13,213 nucleotides of DNA from Oscillospiraceae bacterium. GTDB lineage: Bacteria > Bacillota > Clostridia > Oscillospirales > Oscillospiraceae. The translations under genes and the position numbers were made by a program. The notes under the pieces were generated by a model. That model was not told the origin of the DNA, searched no databases, and worked only from the letters and a program-made list of their open reading frames with translations. Positions 8,074-12,353 of this stretch are shown in pieces. The DNA is taken from assembly GCA_017538775.1 (NCBI GenBank), contig JAFYIF010000109.1:1-13213 (forward strand). The letters run 5' to 3'. Numbering within the stretch: position 1 is the stretch's first letter; each line of letters begins with the position of its first letter.

Positions 8074-9342
8074 TTATGCCCAGACCAGCCAGAGAAACAG
8101 ATAGCCCACCAGCACGGCGGTCAGGGTGTAGGGCACCCCGATCCGCATGAAGTCCCGGAAGGAGACCGCGTGCCCCTCCCGCCGCAGCAGGCCCACCGCC
8201 GTGATGTTGGCGGAGGCCCCGATGGGGGTGATGTTGCCGCCCAGGGTGGCGCCGGACAGGAGGCCGAAGTAGAGCAGATACGGCTCCATGCCCAGCGTGG
8301 CCGTCACAGAACGGAGCACCGGCAGCATGGCAGCCACATAGGGGATGTTGTCCACAAAGGCGGAGATCAGCACGGAACCCCAGACGATGATCGTATACAG
8401 CAGGAACAGATCCTGCCCGCCGAAGCGGACCAGGCCCTGGGCCATGTCGTCGATCAGCCCCACCTGGCGCAGCCCGCCGATGACCAGAAACAGACCCAGG
8501 AGCAGCCCCAGGGTCTCAAAGTCCAGATGCCGGAGGGTGTCTTTCGCGCCGGACAGGCTCCGCTCCCGCATTACGCGCAATAGCAGGGAGGCCAGGGCCA
8601 GGACGCAGCAGATCGCGCCGTTGAGGATGGCCGGGGCTTCCGGGAGGAAGGAGGCCGCAATCAGCGCCGCCACCATCAGCAGCAGCATCCCCGTGGGCAG
8701 ATAGTCGGTGACGGCGGCGCGTTCCCCGGCGCGCACCGGCTCCCGGTCCCCCCGGAACAGCAGCATCATCACCGGCACCGTAGCCAGCGCCCCCAGCTCC
8801 ACCGCAAAGAAGATGCCGGGCCGCCCCTCCATCCAGAAGAAGCTCATGAAGTTCATCCCGGCGTAGTCGCCCAGCATGATGGAGGTGGTGTCCCCCACCA
8901 GCGTGGCCGCCCCCTGCAGGTTGGAGGACACGGAGATGGAGAGGATCATCGGCACCGGATTCCGGCCCAGCTTCCGGCAGATCGCCAGCCCCACCGGGGC
9001 CACGATCAGCACCGTCGCCACGTTGTCGATCAGCGCGGAGATCGCGCCGGAAAATAAGCTCATCAGGATCGTCACCCAGAGGACGTTCTTCGACTTCTCC
9101 AGCAGCAGATCCGCCAGCAGGTTCGGCATCTGCGATTCGATGAACGCATGGACCAAAATCATGGTCCCCGCGATCATCATCAGCACGTTCCAGTTGATGA
9201 CGGAAGCCAGGCCGTCCAGCGGCAGCAGCCCCGCCAGCAGGAACAGCGCCGCCGCGCCCAGCGACCAGAGGGGCCGGTACTTCGGCCAGGCCACCATCAG
9301 GACATACATCAAAAGAAACACGACCAGGGCAAAAATCTTCAT
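8074..9342 (-). CDS. ArsB/NhaD-type ion transporter (SLC13/IT superfamily permease)
   Basis: 422 residues with about eleven membrane segments in two similar halves. Each half has the superfamily's re-entrant pair: SALIDNVATVLIVAP (102-116) with SSNLQGAATLVGD (139-151), and SAFVDNIPYVAAMLP (327-341) with GATLGGNITPIGASAN (364-379). D106/N107 and D331/N332 sit where the conserved 'NN' or 'DN' coordinates the transported ion. Relatives move arsenite, sodium (NhaD) or organic anions; the ion here is not decided by sequence. ATG 9342 has GGGAGGC 7-8 bases upstream and begins at the first membrane helix. A longer frame reaching 9510 is rejected because its ATG lies in the promoter -10. The 5' leader has riboswitch-like features, so expression is probably set by premature termination. 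Confidence 0.9.
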   Translation of the reverse strand: MKIFALVVFLLMYVLMVAWPKYRPLWSLGAAALFLLAGLLPLDGLASVINWNVLMMIAGTMILVHAFIESQMPNLLADLLLEKSKNVLWVTILMSLFSGAISALIDNVATVLIVAPVGLAICRKLGRNPVPMILSISVSSNLQGAATLVGDTTSIMLGDYAGMNFMSFFWMEGRPGIFFAVELGALATVPVMMLLFRGDREPVRAGERAAVTDYLPTGMLLLMVAALIAASFLPEAPAILNGAICCVLALASLLLRVMRERSLSGAKDTLRHLDFETLGLLLGLFLVIGGLRQVGLIDDMAQGLVRFGGQDLFLLYTIIVWGSVLISAFVDNIPYVAAMLPVLRSVTATLGMEPYLLYFGLLSGATLGGNITPIGASANITAVGLLRREGHAVSFRDFMRIGVPYTLTAVLVGYLFLWLVWA

Positions 9343-9370
9343 GCAAGCCTCCCGTTTCACAATTGGAAAA

Positions 9371-9411
9371 AAGACTTTTACCGCAGCCGTCCTTGGTGCG
9401 GTAAAAGTCTT
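9371..9411 (-). terminator. Rho-independent terminator in the leader of the transporter gene (attenuator)
   Basis: On the minus strand a perfect 15-bp stem (AAGACUUUUACCGCA from 9411, complement ending at 9371) with an 11-base loop is followed by six U (UCUUUUUUCC). It ends about 29 bases before the start codon of the transporter gene and after its promoter, so it must be conditionally bypassed for the gene to be expressed. Confidence 0.85.
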
Positions 9412-9416
9412 GCTGC

Positions 9417-9494
9417 CTGGAACATATCCCGGGGATCGCTCCCGCAGGGACGCCATCCATTGCGCACACTGCGCCAGCTGCTGCCTGTTACCAG
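9417..9494 (-). ncRNA. Putative structured leader RNA / riboswitch-like aptamer of unknown class
   Basis: Between the promoter and the attenuator the RNA folds by eye into a closed unit. P1: CUGGUAAC (9494-9487) with GUUCCAG (9423-9417), one bulged base. P2: GCGCA/UGCGC (9474-9470, 9466-9462). P3: UCCC/GGGA (9450-9447, 9430-9427), an internal loop, then GGGA/UCCC capped by a GCGA tetraloop. The predicted transcription start (about 9495) is one base before P1. The GGUAA of the P1 5' strand (in 9493-9488) can alternatively pair with UUACC(G) of the terminator (9404-9399), giving mutually exclusive states. I do not recognise a known riboswitch class. Folding and function are inference. Confidence 0.55.
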
Positions 9495-9500
9495 TATATG

Positions 9501-9529
9501 TATATAGCATATCGGGGCGGCGGTGTCAA
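9501..9529 (-). promoter_or_regulatory. Consensus promoter of transporter gene
   Basis: Minus strand: perfect TTGACA (9524-9529), exactly 17 bases, TATATA (9501-9506) with an extended TGC in front. One of the strongest promoters in the window, which makes sense if output is controlled later by attenuation. Confidence 0.85.
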
Positions 9530-9856: not shown

Positions 9857-9873
9857 TGTCCTGTAACAGGACA
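9857..9873. promoter_or_regulatory. Perfect 17-bp palindrome, probable XRE operator
   Basis: TGTCCTGTAACAGGACA has exact 8-bp arms around one base. A further TTGTCCT half-site recurs at 9905-9911. It lies upstream of both divergent genes, and on the minus strand it overlaps the spacer ahead of a possible -10 (TATGAT). A dimeric binding site for the XRE protein encoded at 9938 is the simplest reading. Confidence 0.7.
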
Positions 9874-9937: not shown

Positions 9938-10177
9938 ATGGCAAGGATCATCGACGGAAACGCGCAGAACATGGTGGGGCCCAAGGTGCGGAAGCTGCGG
10001 CTGGCGCGGAAGATGAGCCAGCAGACGCTCTCGGACCGGCTGGAGACCCTGGCGATCTACGTCTGCCGTGGCTCTGTCTCCCGCATCGAGGACGGACAGC
10101 GCACGGTGACGGACATGGAACTGTACGGGCTGGCCAAGGTGCTGGGAGTGTCCATCGAAGATTTGTTCGAGGATTGA
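9938..10177 (+). CDS. XRE-family transcription regulator
   Basis: 79 residues, one helix-turn-helix domain. The fold follows the Cro/C1 pattern: VRKLRLARKMSQQTLSDRLE (17-36), then YVCRGSVSRIEDGQRTVTDM and ELYGLAKVLGVSIEDLFED at the end. The loop LETLAIYVCRGSVSRIE is longer than the classical turn, as in some Firmicute XRE proteins. AAGGAGG (9922-9928) is 9 bases before ATG 9938. No ligand domain is present, so it probably acts as a simple repressor on the 17-bp palindrome in the spacer it shares with the coiled-coil gene. A strong minus-strand promoter downstream (10298-10326) points back at it and might produce antisense RNA. Confidence 0.85.
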   Translation: MARIIDGNAQNMVGPKVRKLRLARKMSQQTLSDRLETLAIYVCRGSVSRIEDGQRTVTDMELYGLAKVLGVSIEDLFED

Positions 10178-10814: not shown

Positions 10815-12353
10815 TTACCGTCTGCCGCCGAAAAGCGTATTCATCAGCCCGCGCTTCAAAATCTGCGTGCCGGTGTTGACCAGCTGCCGCTCGATGCGGT
10901 CCCGGCGCTGCTGGGCTTTGCGCTCCGCCGCGGCCTTCCGGCGCTCTTCCTCCCTCTGGCGCTGCTTTTCCGCCGCCGCCTCCTCTTTGCGCTGGCGGGC
11001 TTCCAGGGCGGCCTTCTCCTTTTCCAGGGCGGCGCGTTCGGCCTCCAGGGCCTCCCGCTCCGCGTCCACCGCCCGCTGGCGTTCCAGCAGCTCATAGGCG
11101 CTGTCCCGGTCCACCAGCGCGTCATAGCGGCCCATGCCGTCCTCGGCCATGGCCGCCCGGCGGGTCTCTTGGGCGCAGGGTGCCATCAGGCTCTGGGGGC
11201 AGATGATCGCGGTGCGCTGGGTGACGCCGGGGACGCCCTGCTCATCCAGCAGGCTGACCAGCGCCTCCCCCACGCCCAGTTCCAGGATGGCCTCCTCGGT
11301 CTTGAAGTCCGGGTTGGGGCGCATGGAGTTGGCCGCGGCGCGCACCGCCTTCTGCTCCGCCGGGGTGTAGGCCCGGAGGGCGTGCTGGATGCGCCCGGAG
11401 AGCTGGGCCAGCACGCTGTCGGGGATGTCGCCGGGGCTCTGGGTGACGAACCAGACGCCCACGCCCTTGGAGCGGATCAGCTTGACCATCTGCTCGATCT
11501 TCTGCACCAGCAGCTTGGGCGCGTCGGAGAAGAGCATATGGGCCTCGTCGAAGAAGAAGACCAGCTTGGGCTTGTCCGCGTCGCCCCGCTCCGGCAGCCG
11601 CTCGAACAGCTCGCTCATCAGCCAGAGCAGGAAGGTGGCGTAGAGCTTGGGGCTGCGGGCCAGCTGGACGCAGTCCAGCAGATTCACGACGCCCCTGCCC
11701 GCGCTGTCGCAGCGGATCAGGTCCAGGATGTCCAGGTCCGGCTCGCCGAAGAACAGCTCCCCGCCCTGGGCCTCCAGGGGCAGCAGAGCCCGGACGATGC
11801 CGCCCAGGGACTGGCTGGACACGTTGCCGTACTGGCTCAGCAGCTCCTCCCGGTGGTCCCCCACCCAGCCCAGCAGGGCGCGCAGGTCCTTCAGATCGAT
11901 GAGCAGCAGACCCCGGTCGTCGGCCACGCGGAAGACGATGTTCAGCACGCCCTCCTGGGCCGGGCTGAGCTGCAAGATCCGCGCCAGCAGCTCCGGCCCC
12001 ATGTCGGAGACCGTGGCCCGCACCGGGTGGCCCGACGCCTGGTACACGTCCCAGAAGCAGACGGGATAGGGGCGGTAGGCGAAGACCTCCCGCAGCCCGA
12101 ATTTGTCGATGCGCTTTTCCATCCCCGCGCTGGACGCCCCCGGCTCCGCCAGGCCGGAGACATCGCCCTTGATGTCGCAGAGGAACACCGGCACCCCGGC
12201 GTCGGAGAAGGACTCGGCCAGGACTTTCATCGTGACGGTCTTGCCGGTGCCGCTGGCCCCGGCGATGAGCCCGTGCCGGTTGGCCATGCCCGGTGCCATC
12301 GTGACGCGCCGCTCCCCGGCCAGGCCCAGATAGATCTCTTGGTTCAGATACAT
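10815..12353 (-). CDS. HerA-like / DUF853 (YjgR-type) ATPase
   Basis: 512 residues. Walker A is GASGTGKT (32-39), Walker B is LVFFFDEAH (264-272, with D269 and E270), and WFVTQSPGDIPDSVLAQLSG (301-320) carries the sensor Q305. The wording is that of the HerA-helicase C-terminal/DUF853 family, whose members are predicted hexameric ATPases related to HerA and FtsK. The C-terminal 430-485 is a charged coiled coil (repeated EREALEAERAALEKEKAAL). ATPase activity is expected; the biological role of this family is not established. No nuclease such as NurA is visible nearby, which distinguishes it from HerA-NurA repair pairs. AAGGAGG ends 8 bases before ATG 12353. It follows the unknown-function gene at 12395 by 41 bases, so the two probably form one operon. 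Confidence 0.9.
   Translation of the reverse strand: MYLNQEIYLGLAGERRVTMAPGMANRHGLIAGASGTGKTVTMKVLAESFSDAGVPVFLCDIKGDVSGLAEPGASSAGMEKRIDKFGLREVFAYRPYPVCFWDVYQASGHPVRATVSDMGPELLARILQLSPAQEGVLNIVFRVADDRGLLLIDLKDLRALLGWVGDHREELLSQYGNVSSQSLGGIVRALLPLEAQGGELFFGEPDLDILDLIRCDSAGRGVVNLLDCVQLARSPKLYATFLLWLMSELFERLPERGDADKPKLVFFFDEAHMLFSDAPKLLVQKIEQMVKLIRSKGVGVWFVTQSPGDIPDSVLAQLSGRIQHALRAYTPAEQKAVRAAANSMRPNPDFKTEEAILELGVGEALVSLLDEQGVPGVTQRTAIICPQSLMAPCAQETRRAAMAEDGMGRYDALVDRDSAYELLERQRAVDAEREALEAERAALEKEKAALEARQRKEEAAAEKQRQREEERRKAAAERKAQQRRDRIERQLVNTGTQILKRGLMNTLFGGRR

Follow-up and report, generated by a model that had tools for sequence, protein, structure and literature searches.

A probable compact, P4-less form of the Mn2+ (yybP-ykoY) riboswitch, and a copy with an altered sensing core upstream of a CitMHS-type transporter gene in an Oscillospiraceae bacterium

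Na+ (DUF1646) and Li+ (nhaA) riboswitches have ion-transporter genes downstream. In the Mn2+ riboswitch (yybP-ykoY, Rfam RF00080), P1.1 is the switch helix: when Mn2+ drives it to form, the terminator cannot, and the gene is ON; in the crystal structures the RNA forms a four-way junction that includes helix P4 (PMC11087558). Loop L3 of L. lactis reads UCA41AUUC and that of X. oryzae ACA48UACU, and the invariable adenosine in it contacts Mn2+ via N7 (PMC6754395; its role is also treated in PMC9190785). The change A41U or A48U has been reported to abolish the effect of Mn2+ in the switches studied (PMC11087558, PMC6754395), although the A48U mutant was partly rescued by Mg2+ in smFRET (PMC6754395), and a simulation found A41U to be more stable with Mn2+ (PMC9190785). 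A 2020 review takes the view that other ions are sensed by some of the common yybP variants (PMC7266159). In Bordetella, a gene annotated as a calcium:cation antiporter and placed under a yybP-ykoY switch encodes a Mn2+ exporter (PMC8546581). Among the literature matches listed, which form a partial collection, no title dealt with a P4-less Mn2+ riboswitch or with CitMHS genes under one. Here we describe a leader which is, by sequence comparison, homologous to the Mn2+ riboswitch, and which belongs to a compact family best read as a variant of it. The leader had earlier been described as a riboswitch-like attenuator of a class not recognised; the class is a known one, even though RF00080 gives this particular copy no score.

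The leader is located on the minus strand of a 13,213-nucleotide contig of an Oscillospiraceae bacterium (JAFYIF010000109.1), the whole of which is referred to as the window. It precedes a gene (8074..9342) for a 422 aa CitMHS/ArsB-like membrane transporter (PF03600, E 1.2e-70), and the sole solved-structure sequence matching this transporter was 10tp_A, 'Arsenical pump membrane protein' (E 1.4e-7). The -35 hexamer TTGACA (9524..9529) agrees with the consensus at 6/6 positions and is separated by a spacer of 17 nt from TATATA, which agrees with TATAAT at 4/6 and forms part of a putative extended -10 element (TGC-TATATA, 9501..9509). The promoter claimed in the preliminary description is present on the minus strand, but the word 'consensus' used for it was generous; an automatic promoter scan of the window did not list it. 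The leader of about 150 nt between promoter and gene was found as described there. The intrinsic terminator (9367..9411) has a perfect stem of 15 bp, 2 further pairs and a U tract, and folded at -25.0 kcal/mol (z -6.83, matched by 0/200 shuffles); it was absent from the list of an automatic terminator scan restricted to loops of 3-8. The six-T run (9372-9367), of which two T lie inside the stem, ends 24 nt before the ATG at 9342. The 15 perfect pairs and six U reported earlier were confirmed, but the 29 bases given up to the start codon are counted from the end of the stem. GGGAGG (9348..9353) is the likely ribosome-binding site. The leader as a whole was stabler than its shuffles (z -3.97, 0/200 shuffles as good), and the portion before the terminator, folded alone, was of ordinary stability (z -0.19, 80/200 shuffles as good), so the case for that portion rests on its homologues, i.e. 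on covariation and on the covariance model described below. Elsewhere in the window, a gene for a small HTH_3 helix-turn-helix protein (9938-10177, plus strand, E 1.3e-8) points away from the leader and is preceded by the inverted repeat TGTCCTGTAACAGGACA (9857-9873), perhaps an operator, and a HerA-type helicase-like protein is encoded at 10815-12353 on the minus strand (PF05872, E 1.2e-200).

A transporter-based scan yielded 127 relatives, the best 80 of which were kept as loci. In some relatives, GGGAGUAGC, the P2 hairpin, CGUCAGUACGG..CCGG and then GCAGCAAGAC, leading into the terminator, follow one another upstream of the gene. Nineteen leaders, from transporter loci and other relatives and with the window excluded, were aligned, and the consensus helices P1.1, P1.2, P2, P3.1 and P3.2 are those of the RNAalifold structure, with P1.1 added by hand. 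In this alignment 90.7% of the cells were paired, as compared to 75.8% in shuffles, and 20/29 pairs showed changes on both sides, a count reached in 0/500 shuffles. Controls with slid partners gave at most 46.2% pairing; the structure is favoured over its slid versions since it was derived from the same 19 leaders. A covariance model built from these leaders, again without the window (R1), matched the window leader over its full length (9398..9493, minus strand) with 66.8 bits and E 4.6e-18. Conservation and covariation among related genomes, which had been proposed as a check, were thereby borne out, as was the description of a riboswitch-type attenuator upstream of an ion-related gene.

R1 matches were obtained in 99/250 genomes of the window's family and in 97/398 genomes drawn from the phylum (E <= 0.001), the own genome being included in both. 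The family search returned 120 places, of which 90 including the window were aligned and the weakest 30 left out; one match (L178) repeated the second match of locus L141 and was dropped from the counts. Among the 80 transporter loci, 28 had a leader directly upstream, 27 found by R1 and one further, L006, a leader from the same genus as the window. Thirteen of these 27 were training members of R1, and four (L078, L079, L083, L084) were weak, with E 0.003 to 0.014. No leader was found directly upstream in the other 52/80 loci, among which L016 offers only 35 bases before the gene, nor in two genomes of the same genus (G004, G006) whose transporters are 53-54% identical. A similarity search with the leader DNA found matches in 4/99 genomes, own included, and under stricter filters the own genome contained no second R1 match. 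A check of 29 phylum loci used a search pattern that presupposes the L1 motif and provides no independent evidence.

The conserved element that links the aptamer to the terminator is the short helix P1.1. Its 5' strand (9489..9492, continued by A9486 and G9485) pairs without mismatch in the window with 9403-9400, and its 3' strand (9400..9403, continued by U9406 and C9407) lies within the 5' arm of the terminator; the sharing of this strand by the two structures is evident from both sequence and folding. The pairing of GGUAA (9492-9488) with UUACC (9404-9400) had been proposed earlier as an antiterminator, and it is, judging from the aligned sequences, the conserved switch helix P1.1. In the 19 relatives, P1.1 (GGUA:UACC with its continuation) was paired in 93/114 cells, supported by covariation. 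The closing helix P1 of the preliminary description (9494-9487 with 9423-9417), 6 of whose 7 pairs fall in the alignment, was paired in 50/114 cells; the window sequence allows it, but it was rejected as a conserved helix. Two exclusive states sharing GGUAA and UUACC do exist as had been proposed. The polarity assigned to them, P1 formed and gene off, is the opposite of what holds for the helix that is conserved, as in the characterised Mn2+ switch the helix formed means ON (PMC11087558).

The L1 and L3 motifs, the switch helix overlapping the terminator and the downstream genes point to the Mn2+ class. The L1 motif GGGAGUA was present in 87/89 relatives, in an alignment fitted to R1, and the relatives carry the UCA/ACA motif of L3. 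The L3 sequence ACAUACU, found in 8/89 R1 matches, is that of X. oryzae, and UCAAUAC, found in 14/89, is one base away from UCAAUUC of L. lactis. P1.1 overlaps the terminator, and MntP and P-type ATPase genes lie downstream, as in the Mn2+ riboswitch. Against the E. coli K-12 mntP leader, R1 gave E 0.0018 in 17.9 kb, the match covering the P1/L1 strands only and skipping the middle. In the 398 phylum genomes, R1 hit 109 places and RF00080 75, of which 27 were common, all on the same strand; 82/109 R1 places had no RF00080 match, 48/75 RF00080 places had no R1 match, and only one of the 27 common places (G491) was over the RF00080 cut-off. RF00080 matched in 62/398 phylum genomes at E <= 0.001, 8 of them over the cut-off, and in 1/60 nearer genomes (own, genus, family and order) at E <= 1e-3, with none over the cut-off; in 14 loci it gave no gathering match. 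The Rfam scan of the window gave no gathering match, and RF00080 gave the leader no score up to E 10. The absence of an Rfam match says little, since the E. coli mntP leader itself scores 41.6 against the RF00080 cut-off of 45. One weak Rfam match in the window, to mir-132 on the plus strand, corresponded to the terminator palindrome and was discarded.

The relatives differ from the crystal-structure riboswitch, with its four-way junction and P4 (PMC11087558), in having a linker at the place of P4. The linker was 5 nt long in 78/89 aligned matches, 3, 4, 6 or 7 nt in 9, and 14-15 nt in 2, i.e. 3-7 nt in 87/89, a count that leans towards absence of P4 because R1 was built from leaders without it. 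The P4-less shape is not confined to R1 matches, as L230, a match of RF00080, also lacks P4 when judged by eye. The top Rfam match of the relatives was SSRC10 (RF02617, a small RNA of S. pyogenes), with 24.5 to 39.1 bits. It resembles the relatives in the order of core elements, its model having 9 unpaired positions at the place of P4 followed by a terminator, but it is filed as a small RNA and all matches of the relatives were under its cut-off of 56. Up to E 10, the Rfam scan gave no SSRC10 match to the window. The core and the absence of P4 are common to SSRC10 and the leaders L002, L003, L004, L009, L012, L017, L021, L022, L087 and L094. SSRC10 adjoins a gene for a 'putative calcium transporter', shown on the top strand, and was reported by a 3' probe, i.e. 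on the complementary strand (PMC3675131). With this core and this neighbour, SSRC10 may itself be the leader of a Mn2+ switch that has been catalogued as a small RNA, but the reported probe points to the other strand.

The genes following the leaders were tallied as the longest same-strand frame of at least 50 aa whose start lies no more than 450 nt away, leaving aside L178 and also L177, whose contig ends before any frame, with the gene picked by hand for L132, L143, L159 and L169. For 89 leaders, window included, the products of the next gene were MntP (21), P-type cation ATPase (20), CitMHS (15), OAD_beta (12), Na_Ca_ex (8), Na_Pi (7) and TetR (3), with single others in the remaining 3. MntP or a P-type cation ATPase was thus next in 41/89, NCBIfam being in agreement for both. 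The Na_Ca_ex cases fit a Mn2+ reading in the light of the antiporter-annotated Mn2+ exporter gene of Bordetella (PMC8546581). The gene context as a whole supports Mn2+ as the ligand, and suggests that the CitMHS transporters found here handle Mn2+. The OAD_beta genes (oxaloacetate decarboxylase beta-subunit; L107:299-1492 and 11 others) and the Na/Pi cotransporter genes also stand behind this leader; OAD_beta, Na_Pi and CitMHS genes are not known to encode Mn2+ exporters. The own genome (94% complete) contained no MntP match at E <= 1e-3, and the sister genome G001 had two. As regards gene order, one stretch (L141:1057-1894) carries two leaders, the first ahead of MntP and the second ahead of a P-type ATPase. 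At L012:1070-4266 a leader, a Na/Pi gene and a CitMHS gene follow in order as if in one operon, and at L007:2732-3001 a leader and an apparent Na/Pi gene start are followed by CitMHS, as if the middle gene had been deleted. A Gut-1 RNA (RF01706, 69.6 bits) is located near the latter leader (L007:2049-2121).

The copy in the window departs from its relatives in the sensing core. The 5' strand of L1 (9477..9485) is GGCAGCAGC, as against GGGAGUAG(C/U) in most relatives; where the Mn2+ riboswitch has GGGAGUAG, the window has GGCAGCAG, with two residues different. C9483 occupies the place of L. lactis G9, which is G in 88/89 relatives, and C9480 that of U12, which is U in 89/89, with C also in L003 among the 19; this mapping was made here from the published positions of A10 and G9. 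L3 (9444..9450) reads UCCCUGC, where most of the 19 close relatives have UCAGUAC or UCAAUAC. C9448 thereby stands where the characterised switches have the invariable adenosine that contacts Mn2+ (A41 of L. lactis, A48 of X. oryzae), a position occupied by A in 89/89 and 19/19 relatives, and no UCA or ACA is left between 9461 and 9421. The change in L3 was found in none of the 89 and 19 aligned relatives. The helices around the core are present: the 5' strand of P1.2 (9475..9478) pairs with 9415-9412 and hairpin P2 occupies 9462..9474, both supported by covariation and folding, and the P1.2/L1 3' strand GCAGCAAGAC (9407..9416) is unchanged. The region of P3.1, L3 and P3.2 (9421..9461) has three mismatched P3.1 pairs and refolds in silico, folding programs drawing in place of P3 a hairpin GGAUGGCGUCCC-UGC-GGGAGCGAUCC (9433..9458) of -13.5 kcal/mol (z -2.42, 5/200 shuffles as good). 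By manual count against L006, 4/5 changes in the 5' arm of this hairpin create its new pairs, which could be due to selection or to templated mutation at a quasi-palindrome.

The mean pair probability of P3.1 was 0.0 in the window and 0.95 in the sister leader L002, and the gap between the best and the consensus fold was 19.7 kcal/mol and 3.3 kcal/mol, respectively. By folding the window is not set apart from its relatives, since P3.1 probabilities of at most 0.06 were also seen in L003, L009, L010, L018 and L092, several of them core-intact, and the gap was larger in L042, L087 and L092. Of 76 columns that are well conserved among 12 outgroup leaders, 11 are changed in the window and 3 in the sister; all three departures of the sister are shared with the window, leaving 8 changes on the window side and none on the sister side. 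The two leaders are identical at 78/96 positions, which together with the R1 match argues for common descent of the window copy with full-core leaders. Compared with L006, the core was identical at 61/77 positions (79%), as were 184/229 fourfold sites of the gene (80%), and the output parts were identical at 27/29 positions in the promoter stretch (9529-9501), 10/10 in the L1 3' strand and 38/45 in the terminator. Divergence of the core at the level of fourfold sites, while the promoter, L1 3' strand and terminator persist, points to decay of the sensor with the output retained. The window leader lies below the RF00080 cut-off and lacks the metal-site adenosine, and we do not count it among the working Mn2+ riboswitches because of the altered metal site.

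Taken together, the leader probably descends from a compact, P4-less form of the Mn2+ (yybP-ykoY) riboswitch that lies ahead of ion-transporter genes in the family and the wider phylum, and the window copy has probably decayed, with low, unresponsive expression of its gene. In core-intact relatives, high Mn2+ would dock L1 on L3 and stabilise P1.1 (GGUAU:UUACC), which would withhold the UUACC arm from the terminator and leave the gene on, and the terminator would form when Mn2+ is absent; we infer this ON polarity, and Mn2+ as the ligand of the compact family, by homology to the characterised switch. The window copy retains the promoter, P1.1, P1.2, P2, the L1 3' strand and the terminator; the adenosine that contacts Mn2+ is gone from it, as are two residues of L1 and part of the P3 stem. 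Its response to Mn2+ is most likely gone, and its expression would be low and mostly terminated with a fixed read-through, a loss of function that we infer from the changed residues. Against this account stand the terminator, which is only slightly better kept than the core (38/45 vs 61/77), the mutations studied elsewhere, which are A to U and not A to C as in the window, the fact that the altered copy is known from one draft genome, and the neat new hairpin, which may reflect selection and not decay.

That hairpin would be the sensor if the window copy were a naturally re-tuned Mn2+ riboswitch, in which the adenosine became C, the new structure replaced P3/L3, and the P1.1/terminator output was kept, so that another ligand would govern the CitMHS-type transporter gene. 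The well-kept promoter and L1 3' strand, a terminator still at -25.0 kcal/mol, a hairpin folding at -13.5 kcal/mol and the opinion that certain common variants of yybP respond to other ions (PMC7266159) would suit such a switch, but it is a single copy, its L3 change has no counterpart in the aligned relatives, and its core diverges from L006 about as much as the fourfold sites do, so we regard re-tuning as unlikely. It is quite unlikely that the copy still senses Mn2+ through another base or a shifted L3: three core residues are changed, no UCA or ACA is available in the region, and in the switches studied A41U or A48U is enough to abolish the effect of Mn2+ (PMC11087558, PMC6754395), even if the copy has intact P1.1, P1.2, P2 and L1 3' strand and Mg2+ partly rescued A48U in smFRET (PMC6754395). 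An assembly or sequencing fault would explain a single case in a draft of 360 contigs; yet the aptamer differs from that of L006 by scattered single-base changes and by no gaps, the gene has an uninterrupted reading frame, and the divergence is like that of its fourfold sites, which makes a fault very unlikely. A riboswitch class of its own that senses Na+, Li+ or arsenite, towards which the preliminary description leaned, is the most improbable of the readings considered. The transporter superfamily and the occurrence of genes linked to Na+ after the same leader (OAD_beta 12/89, Na_Pi 7/89) are in its favour, but the lean found no direct support: the motifs and cross-matches are those of the Mn2+ switch, MntP (21/89) and P-type cation ATPase (20/89) are the commonest next genes, and scans of the window and relatives gave no Rfam match to any Na+ (DUF1646), Li+ (nhaA) or arsenite class, the comparison with the Na+ and Li+ classes being made by Rfam scan.

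The Mn2+ riboswitch class itself is known; what appears to be new here, on sequence grounds, is a compact P4-less variant, most copies of which escape the standard RNA library. Many probable Mn2+ switches appear to be unannotated, as in 398 phylum genomes R1 found matches in 97 and RF00080 in 62 (E <= 0.001), with 8 over the cut-off. The window leader and L006 form a pair of core-less and core-intact versions of one switch within the same genus. Such compact switches would link Mn2+ homeostasis to transporters of the CitMHS/ArsB-like, OAD_beta and Na/Pi types.
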